This document shows positions 23,670 through 41,285 of a stretch of 64,000 nucleotides of DNA, piece after piece. Both the position numbers and the translations under genes were made by a program. A model generated the notes under the pieces. It saw only the letters and a list, made by a program, of their open reading frames with translations, was not told the DNA's origin and did not search any database. Position 1 is the stretch's first letter; each line of letters starts with the position of its first letter. Source of the DNA: Halapricum hydrolyticum. GTDB taxonomy: Archaea; Halobacteriota; Halobacteria; Halobacteriales; Haloarculaceae. Where the stretch lies: positions 177,274-241,273 of the forward strand of contig JAOPKD010000003.1 in NCBI GenBank assembly GCA_025517565.1, written 5' to 3'.

Positions 23670-23699
23670 TCAGTTCCACTCTGTGTAGCCGCACTTTTC
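23670..23699 (-). pseudogene. Displaced 3' end of rps27ae at the left end of the element
   Basis: The minus strand reads ...EKCGYTEWN then stop, matching the last residues of S27ae (KCGYTRWD) encoded at 40072-40206. No upstream part of the gene is present here. This is the former chromosomal gene end, separated from its gene by insertion of the element, and contains the left attachment core. Confidence 0.8.
23682..23696. other. Attachment site core, left (attL)
   Basis: TGTGTAGCCGCACTT is identical to 40084-40098. Both copies are inside the last codons of rps27ae sequence, and further partial identity extends outward to the stop codon. The integrase gene starts about 60 bases to the right. 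Confidence 0.8.
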
Positions 23700-23754
23700 G
23701 ATATGGTTCACTTGGGTAAGTAGATTCAAGTGGATGGGCTATAGTGGTATCAAT

Positions 23755-25065
23755 ATGGCCCGGTCTGATAGCTATCGTACCCGGTTGGAACGCCGCCGGT
23801 CGAAAATCCTTGACTCGAAGCAACTTACGAACCGCGAGAAAAAACACATCCTGCAAATGAGCTTCGGGATTGACGAAAGCGACCTACGCCACACATCCCC
23901 TATCGGTACTAAGTCCGAAGCGACCACTGAGAACTATACCACGCGGCTCCGGCGACTGGCTGAGGCATATGACGGTGAGTTTCAGACAATCACGCAGCGG
24001 GAGTTACAACGGCTTCTAAGCCAGTTTGCGAACGGAAAACACCCCGATGTGAAAGACGACGGGTTTGCGACGGGCACAATGGTACAGTTCCAGAGTGCAG
24101 CGAAGGCGTTTATTCGCCACCACAAGATGGATCTTGATGCTGACGACATTCCCGTGAGCCAGCCACCGAAGGGGAGCCAGTCGGTTGATGAACGGGATAT
24201 GTTCGACAATTCCGATATCGAGGCAATGCGTGATGTGATTGATAACCCGCGTGACGAAGCCCTGTTTGAACTACTCTTGAACACTGGCCAGCGCGTCCGG
24301 GCGATTCAGACACTTCGAGTGAAAGACGTGGATGTGAAAGAAGGCGTTTACTGGTTGAACACAGACGCCAACGGACTCAAGGGAGCCGATAAAGTCGGTA
24401 AGAAGCGTCCGTTGTTGGGTGCTGCTGGCCCGGTCAAGAACTGGCTTGACTTTCACCCGACCGGGAACCCCGAGGACTACCTGATAACCGCGACTGTGAA
24501 CAACAACAAGGCTACGCCGGGCGAACAAATGGCTCAACAGACGATCCGGCAGCGATTACGGAAGATAGGCGAGAAAGCCGGGGTTGACAAGCCAGTGAAT
24601 CCCCACAACTTCCGCCATTCGTTCGTGACGATGTGCAAGCGGGATTACAACATGGATGATTCGACTATCAAATTCCTCATTGGCCATTCAAGCGACTCGA
24701 CAGTGATGGAAACGACGTATCAGCACTTGACGGATGAAGATTACATCGCTGACGCCGAGGTAGCTATGGGACGCCGTGAGCCTGACGATACCCCGGCAGT
24801 TGGACGCCGTGAATGCCCGAATCCCGACTGTCTGAACGAATTAGACCCGTCAGACAAAGCCTGTCCGTCGTGTGGGACTGTCGTTGCACCGGACGCGAAA
24901 CAGGCACAGGACCAGATAGAAGAGCAAACCCGTGAAGCGAAAGAAGAGGCAGACACCCTCGAAGAGTACAAGGACGCCGATAAGATAGCACAGGCAGTGA
25001 ACGACGATCCGAAACTAGCCGCCGATTTGATGAACAAGCTGGAAATGCTGGCCGAAGACGAATAG
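23755..25065 (+). CDS. int: Tyrosine recombinase (integrase) with C-terminal zinc ribbon
   Basis: 436 residues. N-terminal SAM-like core-binding domain (about 60-150) and catalytic domain (about 160-340) with Arg in NTGQRVRAIQTLR, HNFRHS (H-x-x-R), GHSS and the nucleophilic Tyr in TTYQHL. A four-Cys zinc ribbon (CPNPDC and CPSCG) near residue 360-380 and a charged coiled tail follow. It catalyses insertion and excision at the rps27ae att site. Start MARSDSYRTRLERRR was chosen; an ATG seven codons upstream exists. Located just inside attL, as expected for the element's own integrase. Confidence 0.92.
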   Translation: MARSDSYRTRLERRRSKILDSKQLTNREKKHILQMSFGIDESDLRHTSPIGTKSEATTENYTTRLRRLAEAYDGEFQTITQRELQRLLSQFANGKHPDVKDDGFATGTMVQFQSAAKAFIRHHKMDLDADDIPVSQPPKGSQSVDERDMFDNSDIEAMRDVIDNPRDEALFELLLNTGQRVRAIQTLRVKDVDVKEGVYWLNTDANGLKGADKVGKKRPLLGAAGPVKNWLDFHPTGNPEDYLITATVNNNKATPGEQMAQQTIRQRLRKIGEKAGVDKPVNPHNFRHSFVTMCKRDYNMDDSTIKFLIGHSSDSTVMETTYQHLTDEDYIADAEVAMGRREPDDTPAVGRRECPNPDCLNELDPSDKACPSCGTVVAPDAKQAQDQIEEQTREAKEEADTLEEYKDADKIAQAVNDDPKLAADLMNKLEMLAEDE

Positions 25066-25299
25066 CGCATTGACCGATTAGACGGTATCCTGTGTGCTCT
25101 CCCCCCTTCCTCTGACGACCTCCACCGAAACCTAGTCCTGGGAGAACTACGCTACCACCCGTGTTTCGGCGCGAGAATGGCTAATCTACGATGTCAGTCA
25201 TTGTCCGAAAGACTCCTGTCTGGCTATTTTCTCTTGTCCGTTTGGATACCGTCTTCGTGTCTGGATTAGTTTTATTGTCAAACGAGTCTGTGTTCATAT

Positions 25300-26142
25300 A
25301 TGGACAGACGATCATTCTTACTGTCCGGGGCTACAGTGCTTGGTACAACGATTGCCGGATGCAATTCTGACGGACCAAGCCAAAATGAATACAAGACTGT
25401 TCAGCAGCGACTTTCAGCTGCGCAGTCGCAATTGACTGAGGTTGAAAATGAGCTGAGTCAGGCGAAGGGATCGCTTGCAGACGCCCGTTCAGAATTAAAC
25501 GCAAGTGAAGATGATTTGGCAGCCGCCCGGCAGACGATTACAGAGTATGAGGAGCAAGTTGGGGACTTGGAGAGTGAATTAACGGCGGTCCAGTCCGCTC
25601 TTAATTCGAAGAACCAGACGATACAGGATCTTGAGTCAGTACTTGAATCGAGAAATCAGTCCGTACAGAATCTCGAAGAATCACTGACGACCCAAAAGAC
25701 TACTACTGAAGACCAAAAGAAAAGACTCGTGATTTGGTTCTACGGATATGGAATCACTCTCCAAAATGCTGCTGTCTCGTCGTATAACAATGGCTATGAT
25801 AACTTTGTTAATGAGGACTATATTTTAGCAGCAGAGTCGTTCGCAACCGCATTCGGCCAATATGATGGATCCGCTGTCTTATTTAACAATGCATATGATC
25901 GTGCGAGTGAGTTTGGATATACAGATATTCTGTCCTACTTCAGCGACGCTGAGCGCGCGATGGATCTGATGGCAAGTGCTAATCGGCAGTACGAGATTGC
26001 AGCACGGTTGTTAGCGCAGGGTGAGTCTGCTGATCAATATATTTCAGACGGCGACGAATACTATAATGAAAGTCAAAATTATACTGTTGTTCGTCGGTCC
26101 GTAATCGAAGATGAACTTGGCGTTTCTATTTCGACTGAGTGA
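25300..26142 (+). CDS. Tat-exported lipoprotein with a long coiled coil
   Basis: 280 residues. The twin-arginine-like start MDRRSFLLSG and lipobox TIAGC (Cys21) indicate a Tat lipoprotein anchored outside the cell. Residues 30-145 are a heptad-rich coiled coil (repeated QSQLTEVENELSQA-like units), and the rest is a helical, Tyr/Asn-rich globular part. TTTTAT about 25-31 bases upstream of the ATG is a plausible TATA box. Function unknown; surface location suggests adhesion, exclusion or sensing. AT-richer than chromosomal genes. Confidence 0.75.
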   Translation: MDRRSFLLSGATVLGTTIAGCNSDGPSQNEYKTVQQRLSAAQSQLTEVENELSQAKGSLADARSELNASEDDLAAARQTITEYEEQVGDLESELTAVQSALNSKNQTIQDLESVLESRNQSVQNLEESLTTQKTTTEDQKKRLVIWFYGYGITLQNAAVSSYNNGYDNFVNEDYILAAESFATAFGQYDGSAVLFNNAYDRASEFGYTDILSYFSDAERAMDLMASANRQYEIAARLLAQGESADQYISDGDEYYNESQNYTVVRRSVIEDELGVSISTE

Positions 26143-26216
26143 TTTTGTACTCTGGCCCTCGCTTATCCCCGTTCGCTTTAATTAGACCGGGTCTTCGTGC
26201 CTCCAAGATACCATAG

Positions 26217-26666
26217 ATACAGCCGCAGCACATCAAACGAACAGACGACGGAGAACACTACCGCCTGCGCGTGCCGGAAGGCAAAGATACGACAGGTAAC
26301 GGTGGCAAGCCACGGGACGCTTACTTGTTACCGTCAACCGAGCGGGATCTACACCAATACCAACAGGCGAACGATCTACGCTCGTCTGATCCGTTCATAG
26401 ACCTGTCTGAGAGTGGCGTCAGAGCCGTTGTGAAGCGCGTGGCAGAACGCACAGCCGAAGCGACCGGCGAAGAGGATTACCAGTATGTCTCAAGCCACGA
26501 CCTACGCAGGCAGTATGCACAGCGGTTGCTGGTTGACGAGAGTATGAACCCGCGTGTGGTGATGGCAGTAAGTGGCTGGGATAGCTGGCAGGCGATTGAA
26601 CCGTATCTGAATGCACCCTCTGAGCAAGTGATAAACGACGCCTTCGAGGGTGTGAGTTTCGCCTGA
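26217..26666 (+). pseudogene. C-terminal remnant of a second tyrosine recombinase
   Basis: Open from just after a TAG at 26214. It encodes the distal catalytic part of a different integrase family: SSHDLRRQYAQRLL (H-x-L-R), VVMAVSGWDSWQAIEP and the putative Tyr in IEPYLNAP. The N-terminal domain and first catalytic Arg are missing. A GTG at 26271 could start a 131-residue protein, but without the core-binding domain it would not be a complete recombinase. Confidence 0.65.
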
Positions 26667-26716
26667 AATCCCCCTGGCCCTGTCGTTCTATTTGAATATC
26701 TACCGTATCCAAGGAT

Positions 26717-27127
26717 ATGGGACGGCAGACAGCCAGCGACGACGAAATGCGAACACGGCAGCAGTTGGTTGACCGTGTGGACGCTGCACTTTCGCGGCAC
26801 GAACAGGAAACGACGATGCAATGCTTTGGAGACGCCGACCGATTCCAGATTACCACGTATAGCCCCACAATGGTCCGGTCATTGCTGGAACACGCATACG
26901 CGGAAATCGAGTGGTTGTATCTCGGTGTCCCCGAAGGACGGAACAAGAGGGTGCAGGAACCCTCGGAAGTGCTACGCTCGGATAGCCAAGAGCGTATCGA
27001 GGGGATTTGCGCCACGCTGCCGCTCGGTACGTTGTCGATCAAAGGCTCACCCAGGAACAAAGACCAGCACAGTGGGGTTGTGACGACACCGGCAGACGTT
27101 GAAGGACTGGCGGATGTGTTCGCCTAA
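26717..27127 (+). CDS. Hypothetical protein of the integrated element
   Basis: 136 residues starting MGRQTASDDEMRTRQQLVDR. No recognised motif; mixed alpha/beta with a helical middle (SPTMVRSLLEHAYAEIEWL). It follows the integrase remnant by 50 bases in the same orientation. TATA-like TATTTGAATA lies about 27 bases upstream. Confidence 0.5.
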   Translation: MGRQTASDDEMRTRQQLVDRVDAALSRHEQETTMQCFGDADRFQITTYSPTMVRSLLEHAYAEIEWLYLGVPEGRNKRVQEPSEVLRSDSQERIEGICATLPLGTLSIKGSPRNKDQHSGVVTTPADVEGLADVFA

Positions 27128-27276
27128 GGCTCTTGGTGTTATTTACGTTCCATTGGTACTTATTGGCGTGCAAGATAGATAGCGCGTATCTCGCACACCG
27201 CCGGAGTCAGCTCTGTCGATAGAATCGGCCAGTACAGCTGATACATCAACGCAGAAGCTCCAGTTTCCCACTCGTA

Positions 27277-27849
27277 TCATGCCGCGTTCAATTTTTTCTT
27301 TTCACGTTTCTTGAAAAAGTATCCAATTGCCGCTACCACGATCGCAAGGAGGAAAAACACGAACCCCCAAATCACAAGCCCCATTACACCCCCAATAGCC
27401 ATCCCGACCTCCTCAGCGGTTTGGGGATCTTCGTCCACGTTCGCGAGCATTCCGCCATAAAAAAGAATCGGGACCAGAATCATGATGAGTGCTGACACGT
27501 AGAGTCCGCTCCCGATCGCGCCTGTTGCCGTTCGCTTTTGCCAGAGGTACAATGTCCCACCAATTAAACCGATGAGGAATCCAATCCCACTCCCACCGAT
27601 CTCGGCGAGCGCCCATGCGACGAGGAATCCAATTAGCAATCCGAATACGACTCCAGTTATCCCGATTCGCCATGATTGAGGCAGATATTGTTTCCACCCT
27701 TCTACATCGTCGTCTGGCTCAATGCTGCCACTCTGCGCTTCGAATTCCTCTGTCGAACTGGATGCGTCTTCTATTTCGGCGCCACAATTGCTACAGAATG
27801 ATGCGTCTTCAGCCAGTTCTTCGCCGCAGGAGGGGCAATATGGGACCAT
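27277..27849 (-). CDS. Zinc-ribbon membrane protein
   Basis: 190 residues. N-terminal zinc ribbon CPSCGEEL and CSNCGAEI, an acidic linker, then four transmembrane helices (about residues 62-80, 84-100, 112-130 and 152-178) and a basic tail KKREKKK. The architecture is widespread in haloarchaea without known function. It is transcribed against the surrounding lipoprotein genes. Confidence 0.7.
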   Translation of the reverse strand: MVPYCPSCGEELAEDASFCSNCGAEIEDASSSTEEFEAQSGSIEPDDDVEGWKQYLPQSWRIGITGVVFGLLIGFLVAWALAEIGGSGIGFLIGLIGGTLYLWQKRTATGAIGSGLYVSALIMILVPILFYGGMLANVDEDPQTAEEVGMAIGGVMGLVIWGFVFFLLAIVVAAIGYFFKKREKKKLNAA

Positions 27850-28202
27850 AGTTGAATATCCTACAGCTTATACAATAAATCCCGTTCACGGTTTACGGGG
27901 CTTGAAAAGATTACCCAGCGATTCGCTCAATACACTCTCTAAGTCGGTCACAGTGATTTTGACAGAGAATAGGGAGATCAATAGCGCCCGTACAAGATGG
28001 AGGGCGCGAGTCTCGCACCCCCAGACGACGTGTGTAGAGCGATATCTAGAACCGAAGCGTGCGCTTCGTTCATTCGGTTTGCAAGGCAGGCAAGCCAATG
28101 AGCGTTTGCACCGAGGAGTCAGTCGGGGACATCCTAGTGACTTGAATATGTCGCGCCGGTACTGCCTCCATTACTAACTATGATTATATATGTATACTCC
28201 AT
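27850..28202. other. Intergenic stretch with a hairpin
   Basis: No convincing gene in 353 bases. It contains overlapping inverted repeats at 28050-28079: GAAGCG/CGCTTC separated by two bases, and outer arms AACCGAA/TTCGGTT. A strong AT-rich run (GATTATATATG) lies just before the lipoprotein start at 28203. Confidence 0.45.
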
Positions 28203-29060
28203 ATGGATCGTCGAAGATTTATTGTGGCTGGGGCTTGGATTGGCGCGGCAGCTCTCACCGGATGTTCGGAGGGGGACATTGGTAGAACGACAACAGACAG
28301 TGAGACGACCACGACCGAGACAGAGGGTGAAAGGACCACGACCGAGACAGAGGGTGAAAAGACCACGACCGAGACAGAGGGTGAAAAGACCACGACCGAG
28401 ACTGAGACCGAGACCGAGACTGAGACCGAGACCGAGACTGAGACCGAGACCGAGACCGAGACTGAGACCGAGACGACCACGACACCAATCGATATTGAGC
28501 CGAAAATCTACTCGGGGACCGGGACGAAAGTAATCCGGAACCAGCAAATCCACAGCGGGCTTGTCGTCGCTGAAGTCACGTACTCGAATCTTGAATACGA
28601 CTTCAGCAACATACAAGTCACACTCCGAAACATCGAATCCGGACGGACCACTCAACTGTACGGCGACTCTGGCCCCGTCGAAAACGGGGAAGGAGCAAAC
28701 GTGGTCGATGAAACCGGCGCATACCACATCGACATCGAAAGCCAAGGTGACTGGGAGATAACGATCAGCCAACCCCGAGCAACCCGGGCCGACGCGGATA
28801 CCCCGCCAATCGACGTTTCAGGTACCGGACAAACCGTCACTGGGCCGTACTACATTGAAAGAACCAGGGTTATTACCGCGACAAACGACGCCGAAGGCGA
28901 TTTCATCGTTACTCTCTGGCCGATGAAAGCACCATGGGCGGACTTTGCAATGCCCTTACTGGAAGCCGGACCGGGCGAATACGAATCAAGTTTCACATTC
29001 GACGGCATCGGGTATTTGCACGTTAATTCTGACGGGAATTGGACCATACAGATAGAGTAA
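28203..29060 (+). CDS. Tat lipoprotein with Thr-Glu repeat linker
   Basis: 285 residues. Twin-arginine start MDRRRFIVAGAWIG, lipobox ALTGC (Cys21). Residues about 35-95 are a repeat linker: three copies of a nine-residue unit TTTETEGE(R/K) then a run of Thr-Glu dipeptides. Residues 100-285 are a beta-rich extracellular domain with no recognised family. The linker would hold the domain away from the membrane, and its repeats make length variation likely. Located in the cargo part of the integrated element. Confidence 0.75.
   Translation: MDRRRFIVAGAWIGAAALTGCSEGDIGRTTTDSETTTTETEGERTTTETEGEKTTTETEGEKTTTETETETETETETETETETETETETETTTTPIDIEPKIYSGTGTKVIRNQQIHSGLVVAEVTYSNLEYDFSNIQVTLRNIESGRTTQLYGDSGPVENGEGANVVDETGAYHIDIESQGDWEITISQPRATRADADTPPIDVSGTGQTVTGPYYIERTRVITATNDAEGDFIVTLWPMKAPWADFAMPLLEAGPGEYESSFTFDGIGYLHVNSDGNWTIQIE
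28307..28480 (+). repeat. In-frame tandem repeat tract within a lipoprotein gene
   Basis: Three near-identical 27-base units (GACCACGACCGAGACAGAGG plus GTGAAA and A or G; 28307-28387) are followed by about 90 bases of GAGACC/GAGACT hexamers. All units are multiples of three, so changes in copy number keep the frame. Confidence 0.85.
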
Positions 29061-29069
29061 AACACCGAC

Positions 29070-29128
29070 TACGCCATACGAACCGATAAACTACCGACCA
29101 AATATACAGCCACCTTATTCCTCGATGA
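29070..29128 (+). pseudogene. Integrase C-terminal remnant, copy A
   Basis: 59 bases aligned without gaps to 29663-29721. In the same frame it reads LRHTNR, stop, TTDQIYSHLIPR, stop, the end of a tyrosine recombinase containing the nucleophilic Tyr, with an in-frame stop. The central 20 bases GACCAAATATACAGCCACCT are identical in both copies. Confidence 0.7.
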
Positions 29129-29147
29129 GTCGAAATAATATATACCA

Positions 29148-29561
29148 ATGACAGATAAATCAACAATTGAGCGAGTTTCCCGACGCCAGGTGATTGGCGT
29201 TGTGGGTGCTACGGCCGTGGTTTCACTTTCGGGGTGCTCGGACGATGGGGATGGCGCCTCGGGACCGAACGGCGGAGCCAGCAATCAAAAACGGATTGAA
29301 CTATCCAACATTGAGCACAAAACCGAGGCCAATGTACTGCACTACCTTGCCGGCGAGGCGACGAACCTCACTGATCGAGATCTAAAATTCCAGGTTAGAA
29401 TTGACTGGTTCGATTCCGATGATACGCTACTCGGGGAATCATTCACTCAGATCCGAGCCGATATAGAAGCGGGGCAAACCCGGGTTTGGGATTCTACCTA
29501 TTATAATGAGCGTGAACACGGCCCGCCCGATCACTATGAAATTGAGGTCCATATCTACTAA
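29148..29561 (+). CDS. Small Tat lipoprotein with FxLYD-like domain
   Basis: 137 residues. Start contains RRQVIGVVGATAVVSLSGC, a twin-arginine signal ending in a lipobox. Residues 50-137 form a beta-sandwich-like domain with LHYLAGEATNLTDRDLKFQVRI, which fits the FxLYD/DUF3426-type fold found in haloarchaeal lipoproteins. The gene is bracketed by two copies of the same integrase tail sequence (29070-29128 and 29565-29721). Confidence 0.72.
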   Translation: MTDKSTIERVSRRQVIGVVGATAVVSLSGCSDDGDGASGPNGGASNQKRIELSNIEHKTEANVLHYLAGEATNLTDRDLKFQVRIDWFDSDDTLLGESFTQIRADIEAGQTRVWDSTYYNEREHGPPDHYEIEVHIY

Positions 29562-29564
29562 CCG

Positions 29565-29721
29565 GCGATCCCAGGGACACACCCTTCACACCCTCCGCCA
29601 CTCGGTCGCCTACCGGATTATCCAGGTCGACGGCGGCCGCCTCGAGGACGTGCAACTCCGGTTACGCCATGCGAACCGACAGACTGCCGACCAAATATAC
29701 AGCCACCTCGTCCCGAGATGA
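29565..29721 (+). pseudogene. Integrase C-terminal remnant, copy B
   Basis: Open frame ending at 29721 that encodes HTLRHSVAYRIIQVDGG, then RLRHANRQTADQIYSHLVPR and stop. This is the last third of a tyrosine recombinase (H-x-x-R box, degenerate LGH box, Tyr). The front of the gene is absent, replaced by the lipoprotein gene. Confidence 0.72.
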
Positions 29722-30393
29722 CACGAGAATCAAACCATGTAGTTGAGGTCGGTCGCCATTTCCTCTGTTTCGCTGTACTCGGTAAGAACATCGCCTAAAA
29801 CCACCCTGGCCCCGTCCGGGCGAAGCGTTCGACTTTGACCCATTCAAGGGATAATCGCAAGCAGAAAATCGAATCCGACACTCTCACTCCTACACTTGAC
29901 AGGGAGCAAACCACCTTCCAGAACGAATCCGCAAAATAGCGTCTGAGCATACAGATATCAAGCAGTACAGGACTTGTATCACATCGTTAGTAACGGTGTT
30001 GCGTTATTCTGGAGCCAGTCCTGCTTTCTTCGCGTGTTGTACCAACGTATGACAGCGGTCATAATCCGCAGCGACCACGCAGACTGTGATATTGACTGGA
30101 GAGACGACTCATAGCCTTAGGCGTATAGAATGAGTGGGTAGCGTAGTGTTCACGACTGGTTTCCCGGTGCTATCACTCTCTGTTGAAGCTCACAAGCGCC
30201 GATCTTGGTTGTCGTCGATATTTTGGAGTTGAACAGACCGGGGGTCACGCATAGTACGATACGTACAGTACACCTGTGTGTCCCCCTGGTGTGTACGTAG
30301 TGGCGTTGTATGGCGATTTGTTCCGTCACAGAGAACAACGACTAACCGGAGAGTGGTGGAACGCTTCGAGAGACGCGCACGGGCATTATGCCC
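29722..30393. other. Gene-poor region in the element
   Basis: About 670 bases with no well-supported gene. A minus-strand stretch around 30005-30110 could encode VNITVCVVAADYDRC and HTLVQHAKKAGLAPE before a stop, but has no ATG and may be a remnant. A 62-codon minus-strand frame at 30150-30338 is Cys/Thr-rich and unlike the neighbours; I do not call it. Confidence 0.4.
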
Positions 30394-30702
30394 CTAGAGA
30401 AGGAACACGGACGCGGCGAACGCCACACTGCCAATGAGCAACCCCACTATGAGCAATAGCCCGACTATGCCAATGACAAATGAGACTGTATCCCACGGAA
30501 TCCGGCTTTTCTGGCTGTCTGACGCCGATTCCTCAGTCTGCACTTGGGCAACAGCAACCCGCGAAAGTGTGGCTAGTTTCTCACCTTCGGACGCGTCACT
30601 GTCGATCTTCCCACGTTCTTCGAGCGTCCGGACAGCCTGGGTGTAACTCTCTGCCTGTTCCGACTGATACATAGCAACTGTTTTTTCGGCGCGTGAAGGC
30701 AT
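30394..30702 (-). CDS. Small single-membrane-span protein
   Basis: 102 residues. The first 65 residues are soluble and helical (EKTVAMYQSEQAESYTQAVR, a likely coiled segment) and the last 35 form one long hydrophobic span (VSFVIGIVGLLLIVGLLIGS). It is the last gene of a minus-strand operon of tiny genes from 31311 down. No family recognised. Confidence 0.6.
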   Translation of the reverse strand: MPSRAEKTVAMYQSEQAESYTQAVRTLEERGKIDSDASEGEKLATLSRVAVAQVQTEESASDSQKSRIPWDTVSFVIGIVGLLLIVGLLIGSVAFAASVFLL

Positions 30703-30723
30703 TGTATCACCTAAATTCTGGCA

Positions 30724-30861
30724 TTATGCCGGATTTGAGACGCCACTGATTGCAGTCAGGAACGCCAGAGCGAACAGCACGATACCCCACAGTCCGCCCT
30801 GAGCCATGACGATAAGTGCGAACAGAGCCAGCACAAGGGCCGCGAATAGGCCGGTAATCAT
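30724..30861 (-). CDS. 45-residue membrane peptide
   Basis: MITGLFAALVLALFALIV then AQGGLWGIVLFALAFLTA: two hydrophobic helices. Its ATG overlaps the stop of the upstream gene as ATGA, which supports it as a real translated gene. Function unknown. Confidence 0.6.
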   Translation of the reverse strand: MITGLFAALVLALFALIVMAQGGLWGIVLFALAFLTAISGVSNPA

Positions 30862-31028
30862 TCTTCCCACCGTAAGACCCGATCAACTGACTGCGTGATT
30901 CGGTCAATATGCTCATCGAATGGTTCCGCCGGATCGTCGTCCGGCGTTGCTATGTCACTGTCTCTGGCGACGATCTCCGGCACAATGTCAAGGTCGTCTG
31001 GCACAATGTCGTCAGGGTCTTCGATCAT
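30858..31028 (-). CDS. 56-residue acidic protein
   Basis: MIEDPDDIVPDDLDIVPEIV at the start, then a C-terminal helix ending DRVLRWEE. It contains a repeated DDxDIVP-like motif. Both ends overlap neighbouring genes by four bases (ATGA), so translation is coupled along the operon. No family recognised. Confidence 0.6.
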   Translation of the reverse strand: MIEDPDDIVPDDLDIVPEIVARDSDIATPDDDPAEPFDEHIDRITQSVDRVLRWEE

Positions 31029-31135
31029 GGCGTATCACCTGTGAGTCCGAAGTCTTCCGGCGCGTGTGCTTCGCGGATGTGTGTGGCAAGGTCGTTCAGT
31101 CCTGTCTCTCCGCAAATAGGACAGGTTTTACTCAT
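31025..31135 (-). CDS. 36-residue C2H2-type zinc-finger peptide
   Basis: MSKTCPICGETGLNDLATHI then REAHAPEDFG. The pattern C-x2-C-x10-H-x4-H is a complete single zinc finger. ATGA overlaps on both sides. Such micro zinc fingers are typical of haloarchaeal viruses and plasmids and probably bind DNA, RNA or protein. Confidence 0.68.
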   Translation of the reverse strand: MSKTCPICGETGLNDLATHIREAHAPEDFGLTGDTP

Positions 31136-31311
31136 TCTTCACCCCTCGATAGTGGCCCGTCATATCCCACGTAAGCAGCACAGATTTCCGCGAGGACTTC
31201 TCCCTCTCTGGCGTTTCCCGCGCTATACTTATCCCGAACGACTTTCTCGGCTTGTTCCCACTGCACCTCCTCTGCTGGATCGTACAGGGCGATATGCTTG
31301 GGATTGTCCAT
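31132..31311 (-). CDS. 59-residue hypothetical protein, first gene of the micro-gene operon
   Basis: MDNPKHIALYDPAEEVQWEQ followed by AEKVVRDKYSAGNAREGEVL and an acidic end. Mostly helical. It opens the operon 31132-30394 and overlaps the zinc-finger gene by ATGA. An AT-rich run TTAATATAG lies 15-23 bases upstream, slightly close for a TATA box. Confidence 0.58.
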   Translation of the reverse strand: MDNPKHIALYDPAEEVQWEQAEKVVRDKYSAGNAREGEVLAEICAAYVGYDGPLSRGEE

Positions 31312-32596: not shown

Positions 32597-32600
32597 AGTT

Positions 32601-32747
32601 TCAGACCCTCTTCTTGACCGCTCTGCCGTTTGCGCCTCTTTTACGGTTCGGACAGTTTGGACAAGCTTGCGGTTGCCCACCGTCCGGTGTGAACACGCGA
32701 GCGTAGTGCTCTGAGACGTGGCTACCACAGTTAGCACACTCAGGCAT
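32601..32747 (-). CDS. DUF7563-like zinc-ribbon mini-protein
   Basis: 48 residues, MPECANCGSHVSEHYARVFT then CPNCPNRKRG. The MPECxNCGSxVxxxYxRVFTP start matches what I recall of DUF7563, common in haloarchaeal chromosomes and elements. Function unknown. It overlaps the upstream RHH-like gene by 8 bases. Confidence 0.7.
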   Translation of the reverse strand: MPECANCGSHVSEHYARVFTPDGGQPQACPNCPNRKRGANGRAVKKRV

Positions 32748-33036
32748 GGCTCTCACCTTCTATCTCCCAATCGTCCGTGGTTTGATAGCCGACATACGCG
32801 CCTGCCGTCGTTTTCAGCAAGCCACGAAGCGATACCTCTTCGGGATCAACGCCATGATCCTTAGCCACCGCTTCCCGCGCTTCTTGAATCCGTTTGTCTT
32901 CTCGAAGCCGCCGGAGCTGATAGGACTCAATGAGTCTGTCGAGAAGGTCCGACTGGCTAAGGTCGGTCCCCTGACGGATTTCCTCGAAGGCGTCTTTACT
33001 ATCTTCGCGGATCGACAGCGTAGTGTAGTCACTCAT
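32740..33036 (-). CDS. Predicted ribbon-helix-helix-like protein
   Basis: 98 residues. MSDYTTLSIREDSKDAFEEI then LSQSDLLDRLIESYQLRR: a short strand followed by two helices, as in MetJ/Arc DNA-binding proteins and antitoxin-like regulators. C-terminal part is a separate small domain. Overlaps the preceding and following genes by 8 bases each. Possibly a repressor of the element. Confidence 0.6.
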   Translation of the reverse strand: MSDYTTLSIREDSKDAFEEIRQGTDLSQSDLLDRLIESYQLRRLREDKRIQEAREAVAKDHGVDPEEVSLRGLLKTTAGAYVGYQTTDDWEIEGESHA

Positions 33037-33160
33037 TGTCTAACCCTCGCCGGAGTAGGTCACGGATCGCTTGAGAATGATTCTCGAAACCGTGTTCCTG
33101 GCGGTGTTCTTCAACTGATTCATACATCGGCGGCGGAACCATAGCTTCTACCCGTTCCAT
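33029..33160 (-). CDS. Small ribbon-helix-helix protein
   Basis: 43 residues, MERVEAMVPPPMYESVEEHR then ENHSQAIRDLLRRGL. This is the typical VapB/CopG-type core (strand, helix, NHSQAIRDLLRRGL helix). No toxin partner is recognised next to it. It may regulate the operon. Confidence 0.68.
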   Translation of the reverse strand: MERVEAMVPPPMYESVEEHRQEHGFENHSQAIRDLLRRGLDNE

Positions 33161-33215
33161 ACACGGATATAAGGTAGATAATCCCAAAAATGCGGTAGGC
33201 CAGGCGAAAAAGGCG

Positions 33216-33758
33216 CTATTCAGGCCAAGCAGATTCAAATATCCTACGAGCTTCGCGTTTTGATATATCTGCATCCTTCGCTGCTTCGCCAAACTGTCTA
33301 AAATGCCGAGTTAAGAATTGCTCAGCATTCCCTTGTGCTGCTGCTTCTAACATCGCTTGTGTTTCATCATCTGAATCCACGCCATCAGGGCCTTCTGCGT
33401 TCTCTCTGTGCAACTCGTCAAAGAGATAGTTGGTAACGGACTCGTCTGTTGTGGCGTCCGAAGCAAACCGCAACAGCCCTTGAATCAGGTGCTCTCTGAC
33501 TTGGGTGCGAAAAATAGGGGGGTCAATGTCTGTCTGCACGATCCTATCAGTGAAGCCATTGGAACCGTGCTTCTGTAACAAAGCAAAATCTGCCAGCGCG
33601 TGACGTGTTCTCACCGCGATTTCGTTTTCTTTGGATTTCTCCTGTTGGTCATCACGGCCTTGCCACTCCCCGAGCAGGTACTCTCTTTCAGTTTTAGTCA
33701 GGAAACCACACGACCTATCCACATCATCATGTTCTATCCCCTGTGATTCGCACCTCAT
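33216..33758 (-). CDS. Haloarchaeal element protein with conserved N-terminal helical domain
   Basis: 180 residues. RSCGFLTKTEREYLLGEWQG followed by a basic stretch and RTRHALADFALLQKHG matches a recurring N-terminal module in haloarchaeal hypothetical proteins, often on plasmids and proviruses (from memory). The rest is helical and acidic. It is the first gene of the minus-strand operon and faces the divergent replication operon, so it may be a regulator of both. Confidence 0.6.
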   Translation of the reverse strand: MRCESQGIEHDDVDRSCGFLTKTEREYLLGEWQGRDDQQEKSKENEIAVRTRHALADFALLQKHGSNGFTDRIVQTDIDPPIFRTQVREHLIQGLLRFASDATTDESVTNYLFDELHRENAEGPDGVDSDDETQAMLEAAAQGNAEQFLTRHFRQFGEAAKDADISKREARRIFESAWPE

Positions 33759-33952
33759 AATACATGAGTATGAATTGTCATCTCATAAAACCCCGGCATT
33801 CGTAGGGTTATGATGTGAACGCGGCACCCTGAGCTAATCGGGGAGAAGAACGCCGGAGAAAGCCCGACGCACCCTGAACAAGTGTGTATTGGGGCTATTC
33901 TCTCTTAGTTGGTTCGGTCAGGCGTTCACCGTGTTCGCAGGAGTACACAGAC

Positions 33953-34267
33953 ATGGCAACGAACGCCTTTCCGGGCAACTCGGCGCACCCTACCAAAGAC
34001 ACACCGAGTTACCCGAAGCGGGACGGTCGCAAGACCGCCCAAGACGACAGTAGCACAGGCGCGGGCAATAGTCTTGACGCAAGCCAAGGAGAGCCACCGA
34101 ATCACGGACTCCCCACACACGGCAGCGCCAGATTCCTTCTCTGGATCGGCCAACGCCGTGACCGCGAAGACGGCTTTGATCCGGACCTATCGGACCTGCC
34201 GGAACTGTTCGAGCAGTGGCAGGGCGATACAAGCGAACAGACGATGCTTGTGGGGTGGTCGGAATGA
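33953..34267 (+). CDS. Hypothetical protein, first gene of the replication operon
   Basis: 104 residues from MATNAFPGNSAHPTKD. The first 60 residues are a disordered Ser/Gly/Asn-rich region; the end (ARFLLWIGQRRDREDGFDPD) looks folded. Overlaps the next gene by ATGA. Family unknown. Confidence 0.5.
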   Translation: MATNAFPGNSAHPTKDTPSYPKRDGRKTAQDDSSTGAGNSLDASQGEPPNHGLPTHGSARFLLWIGQRRDREDGFDPDLSDLPELFEQWQGDTSEQTMLVGWSE

Positions 34268-34467
34268 GCCAGGCGAATTACGACTGTCCACAGTGTGGCG
34301 GTCGCCTAGAGTCGCTGGATGTGGACGCCTTCGAGTGCCGAAAGTGTGGGCGCGAGATTCGGGAAGTGGTGGTTGAAGGCATGGACGCCTTCGAGAGAGT
34401 GGCTGAAGACGACGAGAATCCGCTACAGGAAGTTGCCCAAGCCGCGCTTGAGGGGGTTCGGGAATGA
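34264..34467 (+). CDS. Small zinc-ribbon protein in the replication operon
   Basis: 67 residues. CPQCGGRLE and CRKCGREIRE make a complete zinc ribbon, followed by an acidic helix. ATGA overlaps at both ends place it between the first gene and the micro-ORF before the primase. Likely nucleic-acid or protein binding. Confidence 0.65.
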   Translation: MSQANYDCPQCGGRLESLDVDAFECRKCGREIREVVVEGMDAFERVAEDDENPLQEVAQAALEGVRE

Positions 34468-34562
34468 TCCAGGATCGGCAGCTACGCCGCGAGTCGAGTC
34501 CATCGGCAGGGTGGAAAGCCACCTATCGGACCATGCACGTCGGGGTGGTCCAACATGGGTGA
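34464..34562 (+). CDS. 32-residue micro-ORF before the primase
   Basis: MIQDRQLRRESSPSAGWKAT and a short tail. It starts at an ATGA overlap with the zinc-ribbon gene and its end overlaps the primase start by 8 bases. This placement suggests it is translated, possibly only to couple the genes. Confidence 0.45.
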   Translation: MIQDRQLRRESSPSAGWKATYRTMHVGVVQHG

Positions 34563-37233
34563 GATACCGGCCAAGTCCGCTGTTCCGGACTGGATGAAAG
34601 GACGGAACCAGTGGCGGTTGTGGTCCTATGACAAGGACAAAATGCCGCTTGACGAAAACAAAACAGGGAAAGAGTGGAATGATCCCGGTTGCTGGCTGTC
34701 CTTTGAAGGGGCATACGAACTAGCGAAAACAGACAGCCGGTTTGACGGAATCGGCTTTGTCGTGAGTAAGGCCGATCCGTATTTCGGGATCGACGTAGAT
34801 AGTGCCTTGCGGGAACCCAACACTGAGAAACCGAAAGATTGGGTTCCGAGTCCAGAGTTGTTTGTTGACACGGCCTATGCTCAGTTTTCGACCTCTGGAA
34901 CTGGTTTCCACTTGTTCGGTAAGGGCAATCTCCCCGAATGGTGGTCAAATGAGCATTTTGACGACCGCGAACACGAAGGCGTAGAAGCTTATGAAGAAAA
35001 GTTCTTCATTGTCACCGGGAATGAACTGTCTATCTCTGCCGGTGAACCACAAGAGGTTGATCCGACGCCGTGGCTGTTGAAGGCGTATCAAGAGTTGTAT
35101 GGTCGTCTTCCCCGCGAATTGTCGTCTTCCGATAGTGACAGGGGAGATTACGACGGGGACAGTGACCTCTCGAAGGAATCGGTTGAGGACGCGCTAAGCA
35201 AACTTGACCCGAGTATGGTCCATGATGAATGGGTCCGTGTTGGGTTCGCTGTCCATGCGTGGGACAGTGGCTCAACAGGAAAGTCTGTCTTCGAGAGTTG
35301 GTCACGAGGCAGTTCCAAGTACGACAACGCTGCACAGAACACGATTGACTGGATCTGGTCGAATGCCGACGATAATGGGGATGTGAGTGTTGGCACGTTA
35401 GTCCACAAAGCGAAGAAAGAAGGGTGGTCCTATCCCAAGAAAACCACAGACGGTGGGGCAACGACCACAACAGGCGGGGGTACATCGGACACGTCGATTA
35501 GTGACACTTCCGATATCCATGAGACGTTTCGAAACGCCTGTGCTTACTACCAGATAGAAGCAGGCAAGATTGCTACCCGGACCTTTGACGGTGAAAAGCA
35601 GTATGTCGGTGTCGGTGATATCCTGCCGACGACTGGAATAGACGACGCTGTAATGCTGTTCAACAGGGAAGCCGACAATCTTGACGGCACGGACAAGCAA
35701 GCCGTGATTGGTCGAGTTGTCTTCACCGATCTCCAAGATTCGGGCGAGTTCTTCAAAACCGACGACGGACGCCTGTACTACTTCTTTGACGATGAAACCG
35801 AAGTGTATCGGGTTGACCCACAATTGAAGAACCGAACCCTAAGCGAAGAGTTTCAGGGTATGGTGTGGGAACGGTACAATCTCTTCTCGGGGAGTTTCAG
35901 CCGGAACTTGGGTAAGGACTTGAAGAGTCAAGCACGGCGAGCGGCCCCCAAGAAAGACGTGTACCAGTTTGCTCACTACAACGACTCAGAGGGTGAGCTG
36001 TATCTGACTGATTGGGGGAACGGGTACTATGCGGTGTCTCCCACTGCAATCGAATGGCGACCGAACGGTACCGATGTGTACTTTCTCCCTGACGATAGAG
36101 CGGAACCTTTCGAGTACCTGCCGCCAGAAGAACGTGAATCACTCCCCCAGCAAATCCCAGGGGAACGCCCGATGTGGGGCGGTTCCGGTGATCCGATTAT
36201 GCGACTGTTCGGAAACCGGATTAACTACGATGAAAACGCGACTCTCGGGCCGACAGAACAGCGAAAGCAGTTGTATCTACACCTACATACGCTACCCTTC
36301 ATTGATGTGTTGAACGCTCGTCCGATCATGGCGTGGGTCGGAAAGAAGGGAAGTGGGAAATCTATGATACAGCGGTCGATTGGCCGCTTTCTGTATGGCG
36401 ACGGCTATAAGGAGAGCGTTATGCCTGATAGCAAAGACGACTTTCTGGCGAAAGTCACGAATCAGGCACTCGCCTTTGTCGATAACTACGACGACGGGGT
36501 TGATTGGGCCAATGACCTCTTGGCTGCTATCGCTACAGGTGCCGGGATCGACAAACGGGAACTGTATACCACGAACACGCTACGCCGTGAGACACCACGC
36601 TGCTGGCTATCGTTGACGAGTCGAGATCCACCGTTCCGACGTGACGACGTAGCCGATAGACTGCTAGTCTTCCGTGTGCAACGCTTCTCTGATAACGAAT
36701 TCATCGGAGAAGGCGTGTTTCAGCGACAAGTCACACAGTACCGGGACACACTGTGGTCTACCTATCTCGACAACATTCAGCAGGTGCTTGCTGAATACGA
36801 ACGTCGAGATATGGGTACGATGTCGTCAAGTCACCGTATGGCAGATTGGGCAATCTTTGCTCAGGCGACGGCTGACGCCCTTGATGTGTCCGGGGTTGAC
36901 AACCTTCTCGAAACGATGGAAACGGAACGCGCGAGCTTTGCCCTTGAAAACGAACCCTGGGCGGCTACTATTGACGAATGGATAGACGACGATCCCAACG
37001 ACGCCAGTACATGGCGTTCGGCTAGTTCGCTTGTGGATCGACTGAATGAGGTTGCTGATAGTCACAATCTATCTTTCACATACAGTCGGCCCCAGGGCCT
37101 TGGCGGCAAACTCAGCCAGTATGAGAGCGAACTAAGCGAACTGTATAACCTCGAAATTCACGAAGGTCACACGAACGAATATCGGTTCAATGTGACCGAT
37201 GAAACGACCGCAACCGGACTAGGCCGGTATTAA
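34555..37233 (+). CDS. Primase-polymerase/helicase fusion replication protein
   Basis: 892 residues. The N-terminal third looks like an archaeo-eukaryotic-type PrimPol: YFGIDVDSAL near residue 79 supplies the catalytic Asp pair and FSTSGTGFHLFG near 112 the following Ser/His motif. Residues 205-290 resemble a PriCT-like helical domain. From about residue 560 a P-loop helicase domain follows with Walker A VGKKGSGKS near 597, Walker B-like ALAFVDNYDD and SLTSRDPPFRRDDVADRLL (sensor and Arg residues). It would prime and unwind DNA for the element's own replication. Last gene of the coupled operon from 33953. Confidence 0.82.
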   Translation: MGEIPAKSAVPDWMKGRNQWRLWSYDKDKMPLDENKTGKEWNDPGCWLSFEGAYELAKTDSRFDGIGFVVSKADPYFGIDVDSALREPNTEKPKDWVPSPELFVDTAYAQFSTSGTGFHLFGKGNLPEWWSNEHFDDREHEGVEAYEEKFFIVTGNELSISAGEPQEVDPTPWLLKAYQELYGRLPRELSSSDSDRGDYDGDSDLSKESVEDALSKLDPSMVHDEWVRVGFAVHAWDSGSTGKSVFESWSRGSSKYDNAAQNTIDWIWSNADDNGDVSVGTLVHKAKKEGWSYPKKTTDGGATTTTGGGTSDTSISDTSDIHETFRNACAYYQIEAGKIATRTFDGEKQYVGVGDILPTTGIDDAVMLFNREADNLDGTDKQAVIGRVVFTDLQDSGEFFKTDDGRLYYFFDDETEVYRVDPQLKNRTLSEEFQGMVWERYNLFSGSFSRNLGKDLKSQARRAAPKKDVYQFAHYNDSEGELYLTDWGNGYYAVSPTAIEWRPNGTDVYFLPDDRAEPFEYLPPEERESLPQQIPGERPMWGGSGDPIMRLFGNRINYDENATLGPTEQRKQLYLHLHTLPFIDVLNARPIMAWVGKKGSGKSMIQRSIGRFLYGDGYKESVMPDSKDDFLAKVTNQALAFVDNYDDGVDWANDLLAAIATGAGIDKRELYTTNTLRRETPRCWLSLTSRDPPFRRDDVADRLLVFRVQRFSDNEFIGEGVFQRQVTQYRDTLWSTYLDNIQQVLAEYERRDMGTMSSSHRMADWAIFAQATADALDVSGVDNLLETMETERASFALENEPWAATIDEWIDDDPNDASTWRSASSLVDRLNEVADSHNLSFTYSRPQGLGGKLSQYESELSELYNLEIHEGHTNEYRFNVTDETTATGLGRY

Positions 37234-37471
37234 CGATTGGCGCTTTTTCGTCGGTGGAAAGTTGGTTCACTTGTTCCAACTTGGCTCTTCCCGAACGCAG
37301 TGAAACCGATGTGTCATGAAGTTAGGGAAACACCCAGTGCAAGATATAGAGAGTGTATACAGCAGAAGCCAAATAGGCTCAGCGAGATTGGAACGACTCC
37401 TGTAAATAATCAGGATGAGATTAATTCGGGGAGGATGCTGACGCTGATTGCTCGGGCTGAGATGGTCTCAG
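37234..37471. other. Spacer after the primase gene
   Basis: No gene supported in this stretch. A plus-strand frame through it overlaps the next minus-strand gene and has no family resemblance. Confidence 0.4.
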
Positions 37472-37651
37472 TTATCGATGATCTGCCAGCGAAGTGAGAT
37501 CACTCTGTATTGCTCGAATCCACATTGTTCTGAGTTCCTCGTCGGTCGCGTCTGCCGGATAGCACACGTAGATGTTGGCTCTGGTTTTCCGTTTGATCAG
37601 CGTGCCTTCCAACCCACACCGTTCGGCCATGTCTTTGAAGGTGATTGACAT
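37472..37651 (-). CDS. Small hypothetical protein downstream of UPF0058
   Basis: 59 residues, MSITFKDMAERCGLEGTLIK, then RKTRANIYVCYPADATDEEL and a helical end. Alpha/beta pattern. It begins two bases after the stop of the UPF0058 gene, so the two form an operon. Not recognised. Confidence 0.5.
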   Translation of the reverse strand: MSITFKDMAERCGLEGTLIKRKTRANIYVCYPADATDEELRTMWIRAIQSDLTSLADHR

Positions 37652-37653
37652 TA

Positions 37654-37905
37654 CTATGAGGGCGTCGTTCCGGGACTGGCAGTCTGTGTGTGCTGGTGGA
37701 ATGCGCGAATGGCTCGGGAGCATCCACACAGTAGATGAGTGATTGCAGTTCTATGGGCGTCTTTGCCTCGATGGACGTGGTGCGGTCGCGTTGGCTGGGA
37801 CTCATACCGGGCAAAAATATCAGCGTGACTCGTGTCTTCGCGCTTGATATACGCACTCACTTTGAATAGCAACGCGTGAATATGGAGAAGCTCCTGGTGT
37901 TTCAT
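37654..37905 (-). CDS. UPF0058 family protein
   Basis: 83 residues from MKHQELLHIHALLFKVSAYI. The start and a later RPHHVHRGKDAHRTAITHLL match UPF0058, a haloarchaeal family of helical proteins usually found on chromosomes, often as multiple paralogues. The tail is longer than usual and Ser/Thr/Pro-rich. Here it is cargo of the element. Function unknown, a regulator or metal-binding role can be imagined from its many histidines. Confidence 0.68.
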   Translation of the reverse strand: MKHQELLHIHALLFKVSAYIKREDTSHADIFARYESQPTRPHHVHRGKDAHRTAITHLLCGCSRAIRAFHQHTQTASPGTTPS

Positions 37906-38501
37906 GCGTCTCACTGTCTCTCTGTAGGGAAAGTAATTTTCTGCCATATCGGAATAATCCGAAATTACGGTTTTGTAAGTGTCTCGTACACAGCTGATGC
38001 TCCGAAACCATCGTGCGGTATCTCTCCCCAAAAAGGGATGCTTACAGGGCTGTGTTTGGGATACTCCGTAACACAGGATCTTCGTTATCTTATTCCCTGT
38101 ACTGATCGATTCGACCAGGGACGATCTGCAAAGTACGTGGTGCCGTATATGCGCTTTCCATCTTGCACGTTACTCTGTGATAATCTCACTATTTTGATAT
38201 CTGTTTCACTCAGATAGATAAGATCCTCCAACTAACTATATTCTGTCGCTTCTATAACAACAGTATGTAAGGGTATAGCGATATAGCCCGACTTTCCCGC
38301 GCGCTCGCGCGACCCCTCGAACCACAAGAGAGCAGTTTATTCTTCATGGTTTTAATCGAGGGTCCCCAGGGGACGCTGCTTATCCCGCGCGGGCGTACAC
38401 GCGGGCGGGATAAAGCCAAAATCGGGGGGACCCTTGAACCCTTGTGCTGTCTTGCGGTTATGTGTATACTCCTAATTAGCAGCTTGCTATGTGGCGGAAT
38501 G
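37906..38501. other. Gene-poor region with palindromes, candidate origin
   Basis: About 600 bases without a supported gene. The right half contains a self-complementary run near 38299-38311 and nested inverted repeats at 38359-38434 described separately. It lies downstream of the replication operon. Confidence 0.45.
38359..38434. repeat. Nested inverted repeats
   Basis: Outer perfect 9-base arms AGGGTCCCC (38359-38367) and GGGGACCCT (38426-38434). Inner perfect 9-base arms TTATCCCGC (38380-38388) and GCGGGATAA (38405-38413). The left outer arm is also part of a 13-base palindrome GTCCCCAGGGGAC (38362-38374). The region could form a cruciform or bind a replication initiator. Confidence 0.75.
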
Positions 38502-39551
38502 CTAGCAGAAATTCTGTGTGGCATAGACTTTCGTCTTCCCGTTGTCATCCGCGATGTAGACACCGATTCCCTCTGCTTGCCAGTATGGCCGTAAGATATT
38601 CTCTCGGTGGCCAGGGGAGTTCATCCACTGGCTGACTAGTCCCTCAGCAATTTGTGTTTCGTCATAATCGTGATCGACAACTGAACCGTCTTCTCGCTCA
38701 ACATCGGACCCGGCAAAGGTATACGCGATATTTTCACCTCCACTTGTGATTATCCCGTCCGCTGTCTCAATACGGCAGTTATAGTTGAACCTCTGATAGC
38801 GGTCTTCGAGAGTTTCTCCATCGGGTGCTTCATGGGCAAAATACCCGTTCTGAGCCATATCTTCGCTATGGTAGCGGGCAATATCTCGTAATTCAGTGTC
38901 CCATTCTAAAGGGCGCAATCCATGTTCTCCCCGTCGTTCATTGATTTCGCGGTGGATTTCACGTTCTACTTCCGTCCGGTTCACGCTTGTATCGGCAAAA
39001 TCAGAGATACCAGAGGCAAGGTCTTGGGACGGCCCGTCGATTATAGGAATTCCAGTGCCTACAGTCGCACCAACAAGGAGCAGCAAGCCGGCGACGATTA
39101 GGCCGACAAGAATTAGGCGAAAGCCGATCGAAATACCCTTTCGGGTATAGATTTTCGTGTCAATCCACAGTTTTCGCCAGTCAATCACACCGCTTTCATC
39201 TGACTGGGGGTTTGACACCCTTCCCGATGTTGGTCCCTTGATTGATCCATCACTAGCAACATCGGGACTTGATTCTCCGAAATCCTGCCTCGAAGAACTA
39301 CCTACCCGACCAGGATTATCCACAGTACGTCGCTCTGTAGTCTCGTTACTATCTTGTGCAGACGTGTCTGTATCGCTTGTTTCCTGAATCCAGCCCGATC
39401 CTGGCCCATTCCCGCCAAAAGAGAGTTCTGAAATGAGTTCCGGACAGTTGTGGTTTTCTGGTAAGCGGTGCTCACTACAGTGAGTCTCGCCACAGTAGTT
39501 ACACGTATAGGAGTGGGCTACAGACTCACCACAGACGGAACATTCTTTCAT
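38502..39551 (-). CDS. AN1-type zinc finger, membrane-anchored CAP-domain protein
   Basis: 349 residues. Residues 1-40 are an AN1-like finger ([25 protein letters not shown]). A disordered linker follows, then one transmembrane helix (about 148-170, [20 protein letters not shown]) and a CAP/SCP-PR1 domain (about 195-349) with [31 protein letters not shown] and [13 protein letters not shown] carrying the family's conserved His and Glu residues. The finger is cytoplasmic and the CAP domain extracellular. Located at the right end of the integrated element. Confidence 0.85.
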
Positions 39552-39717
39552 TACCTGTTCTTGTCACGCACTCACAATAAAAATCGGTCCTTATTCTGGC
39601 GCAATTGCGAAGGAATTATACCCCCCGACAGTGCATTTGCCGGTGCCACCCTCAAGTGGCTATCCCCCAAACGGATCGATCCTTTCCCCACGCTTTTCTA
39701 ACGTACTACCAACCACT

Positions 39718-39822
39718 TCAAAACGGACCGACGCCTGCGGCTATCATCGCAACAGCCCACACTATGATCACAAATAACGCTATTCCTGTGCGATAGAGGA
39801 ATTTTCTGAATTGCTTGCTCAT
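39718..39822 (-). CDS. 34-residue single-span membrane peptide
   Basis: MSKQFRKFLYRTGIALFVII then a short hydrophobic end: a basic start followed by one membrane helix. TTTATTTTA lies about 30-38 bases upstream as a possible TATA box, which favours a real gene. Function unknown. Confidence 0.45.
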   Translation of the reverse strand: MSKQFRKFLYRTGIALFVIIVWAVAMIAAGVGPF

Positions 39823-40071
39823 GGCTACACATTTGTCTGTTCAAAAATAAAATAAAGGGGTAGACCCATTTTGCCGCACACAGTAGGACAGAATACCAAT
39901 CCAAAATACCACTGATGGCAATTTGCGCGCCGAACCTATCATTTGATAGAGAGGTGGGGGGTGTCTCAAGACCTATCAGGTTTCAGATAGTGATATAGCA
40001 ATCCCTACGCCATGTTGCGATTCGGGAGAATAGCCGTTTCCCGGTGTTCAACCGGATTTTCTACTTACCGC

Positions 40072-40206
40072 TTAGTCCCATCTTGTGTAGCCGCACTTGC
40101 CGCAGTGGAGCCGGTCGCCGTGATCAGCCAGGAACGCGTCGCCACACCGAGGGCACTGTTCGTGGTCGGTCGTCCCGTCCTCGTCGTAGAGTTCGTAGCG
40201 CGCCAT
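40072..40206 (-). CDS. rps27ae: 30S ribosomal protein S27ae
   Basis: 44 residues, [18 protein letters not shown] and a four-Cys zinc ribbon (CPRCG, CGKCG) ending YTRWD. It is a small-subunit protein of archaea and eukaryotes. Its last codons come from the attachment site of the integrated element, so the terminal residues (RWD) differ from those of the displaced original end (EWN at 23670-23681). It follows rps24e with no gap, the usual archaeal order. Confidence 0.93.
40084..40098. other. Attachment site core, right (attR)
   Basis: TGTGTAGCCGCACTT, identical to 23682-23696, inside codons for CGYT near the end of rps27ae. Confidence 0.8.
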
Positions 40207-41281: not shown

Positions 41282-41285
41282 CACG

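Follow-up and report, generated by a model that had tools for sequence, protein, structure and literature searches.

The window analyzed here, 64,000 nucleotides (nt) from the draft genome of Halapricum hydrolyticum (GCA_025517565.1, 52 contigs; contig JAOPKD010000003.1, 177,274 to 241,273 of the forward strand), contains the ribosomal protein gene rps27ae with an element of about 16.4 kb (23682 to 40098) at its 3' end. Coordinates are window positions throughout, and G-, L- and P-numbers denote the genomes compared, loci and proteins, respectively. The element is bounded by a direct repeat that serves as its attachment (att) core. This 15-bp sequence, TGTGTAGCCGCACTT, has exactly two copies in the window, with starts 16,402 bases apart, and the right copy lies within rps27ae (Table 1). 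The guanine-plus-cytosine (GC) content of every 1-kb bin between 24 and 40 kb lies at 0.48 to 0.57; bins outside mostly have 0.60 to 0.70. A tyrosine integrase gene begins 37 bases past the left core. Residues R180, H284, R287 and Y322 of its product, which we take to be the catalytic residues, are invariant in alignments with 16 close and 17 wider relatives. A search of the window for tRNA genes found none.

At the right end of the element, rps27ae is an open gene whose product matches the S27ae equivalog NF001669 (69.5 bits against a cut-off of 54). Its reading frame is rebuilt with the element's own stop codon, TAA replacing TGA, and its length is unchanged at 44 codons. The product now ends in CGYTRWD. 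At the left end, beside the integrase, a stranded fragment on the minus strand reads KCGYTEWN followed by a stop. A tail-pattern search of the host genome found two S27ae tails at a distance of 16,402 bases, and the matches listed included no further complete S27ae gene. Similarity between the two ends extends imperfectly beyond the core to 32 nt, of which 27 are identical (84%), across the rps27ae stop codon. Past the core 12 of 17 nt agree (binomial tail 1e-4 at p = 0.25). This level of agreement argues that the end brought by the element is a diverged copy of the gene's own and not unrelated DNA kept open by chance.

A 15-bp repeat within 17 kb is expected by chance about 0.13 times at equal base frequencies, so the repeat by itself is weak proof of insertion; what proves it is a congener, G178, in which the site is empty. 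The window flanks, joined at the core, align unbroken to the G178 locus through the junction (88.4% over 2329 nt), and the S27ae of G178 ends in CGKCGYTEWN. Because G178 joins the exact flanks and has YTEWN, the native end must be the displaced one on the left, and YTRWD was supplied by the element. The initial annotation of this stretch had proposed an element integrated in the coding end of rps27ae, and the two cores, the low-GC stretch, the integrase and the empty site bear this out. Its further proposal, that the last residues of S27ae are supplied by the element, is upheld by the G178 ending. That ending is the one seen in the left copy, the opposite of the right-copy match that the annotation had named as speaking against insertion. 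We therefore consider it very probable that rps27ae harbors a 16.4-kb element in its 3' end, which likely arrived by way of its own tyrosine integrase and which supplies the last codons of the gene, turning YTEWN into YTRWD.

Table 1. Features of the element and its attachment sites in the window (aa, amino acids; ORF, open reading frame)
Feature	Position	Strand	Basis
Displaced native rps27ae 3' end (KCGYTEWN and stop), severed from the gene	23670..23696	-	Translation; equals the end of the intact G178 gene
Left attachment core TGTGTAGCCGCACTT	23682..23696		Exact repeat, two copies in window
Tyrosine integrase, 443 aa, C-terminal zinc-ribbon-like Cys pattern	23734..25065	+	PF00589, 82 bits vs cut-off 27.1
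Cargo: predicted coiled-coil lipoprotein	25300..26142	+	ORF list; only coiled-coil look-alikes in Pfam, PHROGs and PADLOC; lipoprotein read from N-terminus
C-terminal piece of second integrase	26271..26666	+	PF00589, 26.7 bits, slightly below cut-off
Cargo: lipoprotein-like protein with Thr/Glu repeat	28203..29060	+	ORF list; no Pfam family above cut-off
Cargo: small lipoprotein-like protein	29148..29561	+	ORF list
Integrase C-terminus remnant	29506..29721	+	phrog_1 integrase, 2.9e-7; 73-nt repeat with 29061-29133, 81%
Primase/helicase-like replication protein, 892 aa	34555..37233	+	PF08707 PriCT_2, 53.7 bits; phrog_1829 DNA primase, 1.9e-28
Cargo: AN1 zinc finger and CAP domain protein	38502..39551	-	PF00188 and PF01428 above cut-off
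Element-derived end of rebuilt rps27ae (R, W, D, stop)	40072..40083	-	Unlike displaced copy and G178
Right attachment core TGTGTAGCCGCACTT, inside rps27ae coding sequence	40084..40098		Exact repeat
rps27ae, rebuilt (host 5' part and element 3' end)	40072..40206 incl. stop	-	NCBIfam NF001669 and empty-site comparison

The new S27ae tail is rare. At E<=1, 389 of the 391 genomes of the class gave an S27ae match; many matches of one family, with E above 1e-3, are probably not S27ae. We read the gene in 79 distinct genomes, comprising the 30 best matches and 49 others mostly picked for lacking the tail pattern. The swapped position is Glu in 78 of these 79, and Arg is found only in the host of the element. 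Archaeal chains of solved structures with printed alignments have CGYTEW or CGYTEF. A terminal YTRWD or YTRWN occurs in three stretches among 84,980 species genomes, all in bacterial records, the records of the host genome itself having perhaps been left out of that set. Four of 24 S27ae protein clusters from public sequence collections have a changed YTEW motif (P0003, FTLWN; P0015, YTSWNTA; P0020, YTELET; P0023, YSESA), and these may be candidates for other occupied rps27ae sites. The S27ae tail pattern was matched in 172 of the 391 genomes, more than once in the host, G272, G129, G157, G271 and G284. The extra sites in G272, G157 and G271, together with single Arg-type sites in G226 and G217, proved upon reading not to be S27ae genes. 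Within about 12 kb downstream of the S27ae genes fetched, loci L015 to L044 mostly carrying 1.5 kb of flank, a single weak integrase match was found (L052, 28% over 244 aa). Searching phages and plasmids with S27ae by tblastn returned no S27ae gene. A survey of haloarchaeal rps27ae for occupied and empty sites, as proposed in the initial annotation, thus yielded an empty site, and an occupied one in the host genome only. As a separate observation, locus L106 of G272, a genome of the same genus, has near position 6028 an AT-rich non-coding stretch and then codons for CGYTRWH with a stop. These lie about 0.1 kb ahead of an apparent integrase fragment and 1.1 Mb from the S27ae gene of G272; the same Glu-to-Arg change could here be a relic site or chance.

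The arrangement at rps27ae recurs in the wider integrase family. Family matches were found in 8 of 391 genomes at E<=1e-100 and 45 of 391 at E<=1e-60, and in 12 of 146 at E<=1e-80 in a family-level search. We read the DNA of 37 family loci, the window included; 21 further matches at E<=1e-60 fall outside this count. A displaced gene end with the rebuilt gene at the opposite end of the element was found at 14 of the 37 loci (window included), in rps27ae (one), taw1 (three), the DNA polymerase D subunit gene DP2 (seven), a GST-like gene (two) and a peroxidase-like gene (one). Except for rps27ae, these targets are named by profile (Wyosine_form for taw1, GST_C, DNA polymerase II large subunit for DP2, and peroxidase-related enzyme). 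The taw1 elements lie in the host genome (about 13.3 kb), G127 (9.3 kb) and G136 (33.4 kb); the DP2 elements in the host genome, G332, G169, G422, G120, G119 and G010; the GST-like targets in G407 and G268; and the peroxidase-related target in G412. The host itself carries three elements of the family, in rps27ae, taw1 and DP2. Its DP2 element, at about 1.9 kb, is scarcely more than an integrase, and the integrase of the G119 DP2 element has internal stop codons. Siting in coding ends is therefore wider than the initial annotation had held, extending to the whole integrase family and to two further insertions in the same host. Related elements, likely placed by their own recombinases, treat further core genes, that of the replicative DNA polymerase among them, as this one treats rps27ae.

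The element replaces the 3' end of rps27ae, DP2 and the GST-like and peroxidase-like genes. For taw1 it replaces the start, supplying roughly the first 40 codons, and what is left of the original start is a stub of 45 to 55 codons. The joined (empty) arrangement for the host's taw1 element is present in the congeners G069, G178 and G272. The empty site of the host's DP2 element is weaker evidence: congeners have matches to the gene body and to the displaced tail, and conservation does not extend past that tail. At L195 and L201 the integrase stands beside a displaced GST or DP2 end, and the other side lies beyond the fetched contig. At 14 more loci a gene end is recognizable beside the integrase and a second copy was not found: SdhA (three), RPA (two), a flavoprotein (two), an acidic tail (two) and five single targets (IF-2B-like, 2-hydroxyacid dehydrogenase, methyltransferase-like, phosphoesterase-like and a small CDFCGD protein). 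Profiles support SdhA, RPA, flavoprotein, IF-2B and 2-Hacid_dh; the other names at these loci are our own assignments. Four loci lie beside a DUF309 gene. In three of them (L114, L205 and L207) a second copy of the WYNYG stretch is inverted, which may reflect inversion or another insertion mode. A six-frame tblastn search for element ends gave compositional noise only. The paucity of tRNA genes at family loci (2/17 and 0/19) was dropped as evidence because a control integrase family is likewise poor in them (2/30 loci).

Target choice follows the integrase phylogeny. On a tree of 35 integrases with 16 target labels, assigned from the neighboring gene and including one-ended loci and one 'unknown', the labels need 15 changes, the minimum possible. 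None of 200 label shuffles scored as low, a score to which near-copies contribute. DP2 (8), DUF309 (4), taw1 (3), GST (3), SdhA (3), RPA (2), flavoprotein (2) and acidic tail (2) each form a single group. This perfect sorting indicates that target choice goes with integrase lineage. The nearest relatives of the window integrase are 15 metagenome proteins, 67 to 83% identical, and on a tree of 32 they group with it at 100/100. The integrase query gave no DNA context for close relatives from genome contigs. Viral contigs searched with the integrase, the close-relative alignment, the primase and an S27ae alignment held no close relative; a wider integrase alignment found one relative there, at 38%.

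In all seven DP2 cases, the rebuilt tail differs from the displaced tail at the same place. Natural DP2 tails have Gln (KQSGIADFM and the like) in 28 of the 30 genomes read, the exceptions being the host's occupied gene and G183, and Gln is present in none of the seven rebuilt tails: RPTSLAEFM, KPTTIGDFM (twice), KPTSLGDFM, KATSLGDFM, KPTTIADFMGGG... and KPTSLADFMGGS... The natural tail KQSGIADFM presumably acts as a PCNA-binding motif, which it resembles. The DP2 integrases belong to a single clade, so these seven tails probably descend from one version and were not invented seven times. G183 DP2 ends in KPSTLGDFM, like an element tail, and 40 kb beyond the gene held no integrase and no displaced tail. 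This end is either a natural variant or a scar, and such a tail without an element speaks against reading every one of them as element-borne. In addition, L212 of G010 has two DP2-tail-like copies upstream of the integrase, KNKQSGIADFM with a stop and KNRQSGIADFNTM..., perhaps the trace of two successive insertions.

The mechanism that these arrangements support best is conservative site-specific recombination. The circular form of the element would carry a gene-end mimic adjoining the core (attP), and the integrase would recombine attP with the chromosomal core in the gene (attB). Because the mimic is carried along, rps27ae would remain open at the same length, with its own end left on the opposite side of the element. 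Excision would restore the native end. Conserved coding ends would offer landing sites in nearly every host, and the carried substitute would keep an essential gene working, which is the likely reason for such a choice. The circle, catalysis by this integrase, excision and tolerance of the changed ends are what we infer from the sequences.

The remaining content is that of a putative integrative plasmid-like element, judging from its predicted genes (Table 1). Apart from the integrase, the primase/helicase-like protein and the CAP domain protein, it encodes three lipoprotein-like proteins, zinc-ribbon proteins and, on a weak match, a ribbon-helix-helix-like protein. Remnants of two other integrases lie inside it. 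The piece at 26271-26666 has a counterpart in the host's taw1 element (96% identity over 130 aa), and overall some of the proteins are 86 to 96% identical to parts of that element, so the rps27ae and taw1 elements exchange cargo. The copies of the 73-nt repeat, both in such remnants of integrase C-termini, each follow a lipoprotein-like gene, as though successive insertions had added cargo. Two profile scans of 10 element proteins each recognized no conjugation or mobilization protein, and among the 10 proteins scanned with PHROGs no capsid or packaging protein was recognized, save weak coiled-coil look-alikes. Outside the element, GC also falls at 60001-61000 and 16001-17000 (0.49 and 0.57), which may mark other acquired pieces. 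Just past the rps27ae operon, at 41129-42545, lies a gene for a TnpB-type RNA-guided nuclease (NCBIfam guided_TnpB, 285 bits). The G178 match ends at about 40896, so this gene may be a second strain-specific insertion.

Several points weigh against the proposed integration. Its support is assembled sequence, with no excised circle or joined reads among it. The rps27ae target is not replicated, as the 15 metagenome relatives are known as proteins alone; no second occupied rps27ae was found, and in none of the other genomes with the integrase at E<=1e-100 does it lie beside an S27ae tail. In the family, 20 further loci have one end recognized or, for three at DUF309, inverted copies that simple integration does not give, and three (L109, L206 and L209) are without assignment. 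In a draft of 52 contigs, the 16.4-kb stretch could have been wrongly joined to rps27ae by an assembly or binning error, its ends coming from different strains. We give this almost no credence, given the exact core at both junctions, an integrase placed at the end where it is expected, an in-frame join of the flanks when set against G178, and the same anatomy in 13 other elements with both ends seen, other genomes among them. It is also highly unlikely that YTRWD goes back to point mutation or drift that the host gene underwent once the element was in place, rather than to DNA brought by the element. The left and right ends are related sequences, as their 84% likeness over 32 nt attests; however, their differences start at the core edge and include the stop codon and the sequence beyond, the core is untouched, and the change falls at the same place in every DP2 case.

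A larger share of doubt attaches to the state of the element than to its insertion. That the stretch is a dead relic of an integrative plasmid or provirus, no longer moving, is possible, though we hold it to be the less probable state. The two integrase remnants inside it fit such decay, and the lack of a capsid or conjugation protein among those scanned allows either decay or dependence on other elements. However, the integrase is unbroken and retains its catalytic residues, and the two cores do not differ. An element inserted at rps27ae, likely by its own integrase, whether or not it still moves, remains the reading that we prefer.

Integration into coding ends with a changed tail is already known from bacteria and Thaumarchaeota. 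In the cited part of a survey of thaumarchaeal integrated elements, 14 of 68 sit in coding ends, and in NitEve-E2 a 13-bp att site in the 3' end of a zinc-finger gene lets the element replace the gene end and stop codon (PMC6563490). The H. hydrolyticum element is alike in its short att site of the tyrosine-recombinase type in the 3' end of a protein gene and in the replacement of end and stop; the thaumarchaeal elements belong to another phylum, and neither a ribosomal protein or DP2 target nor one integrase family with target-specific sub-clades is described in that part of the survey (PMC6563490). Streptococcal integrative conjugative elements (ICEs) integrate in rpsI, rpmG and rplL, with integrases that group by target gene, and according to the section cited the product is unmodified for tRNAs and ribosomal proteins (PMC4701971). 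They share with the present element a tyrosine integrase, the 3' end of a ribosomal protein gene and the grouping of integrases by target; unlike in the ICEs as described in that section, a conserved residue is changed here and no conjugation gene was recognized among the proteins scanned (PMC4701971). For the Halorubrum virus BJ1, HMG-CoA reductase is given as the attachment gene, likewise haloarchaeal and protein-coding, with a different target (PMC8371274). The SSV-type suicidal integrases covered in the same review are also archaeal tyrosine integrases of integrative elements, and have att within the integrase gene, which is split upon integration, whereas here the core precedes an intact integrase ORF (PMC8371274). 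Haloarchaeal tailed proviruses sit mostly in tRNA genes, as far as the cited portion goes (PMC8651126).

The integrases of HRTV-27 and a Halococcus dombrowskii plasmid, compared by integrase sequence alone, are homologous to that of the window at about 39% identity. The initial annotation had regarded the rps27ae target as exceptional; the site in a coding end stands, and the setting is less exceptional than held, given the coding-end targets of the thaumarchaeal elements, BJ1 and the streptococcal ICEs. In the open literature searched, nothing relevant was found on S27 or DP2 as a haloarchaeal integration target, which is no proof of novelty. What is new is the swapping of conserved gene ends across an integrase family, that of a replicative polymerase gene included, and this is more interesting than the single rps27ae case.

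Elements that land in essential coding ends must bring a working substitute. The substitutes here deviate at otherwise fixed positions, Glu in S27ae and Gln in DP2, and are natural, independent swaps in a ribosomal protein and a replicative polymerase. From the change of Glu to Arg in S27ae and of KQSGIADFM to KPTSLGDFM-like ends in DP2, one might suppose that the recombinase family serves as a system for swapping alleles at the working ends of core proteins, its elements tuning host translation or replication for their own benefit or against rival elements; we think this unlikely. The integrases with known targets (rps27ae, DP2, taw1, GST-like and peroxidase-like genes) are possible gene-tagging tools. 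An unusual C-terminus of a core archaeal protein, in a genome or a metagenome, may have come with an element, and H. hydrolyticum itself lives with an S27ae that differs from those of its relatives at a fixed position.

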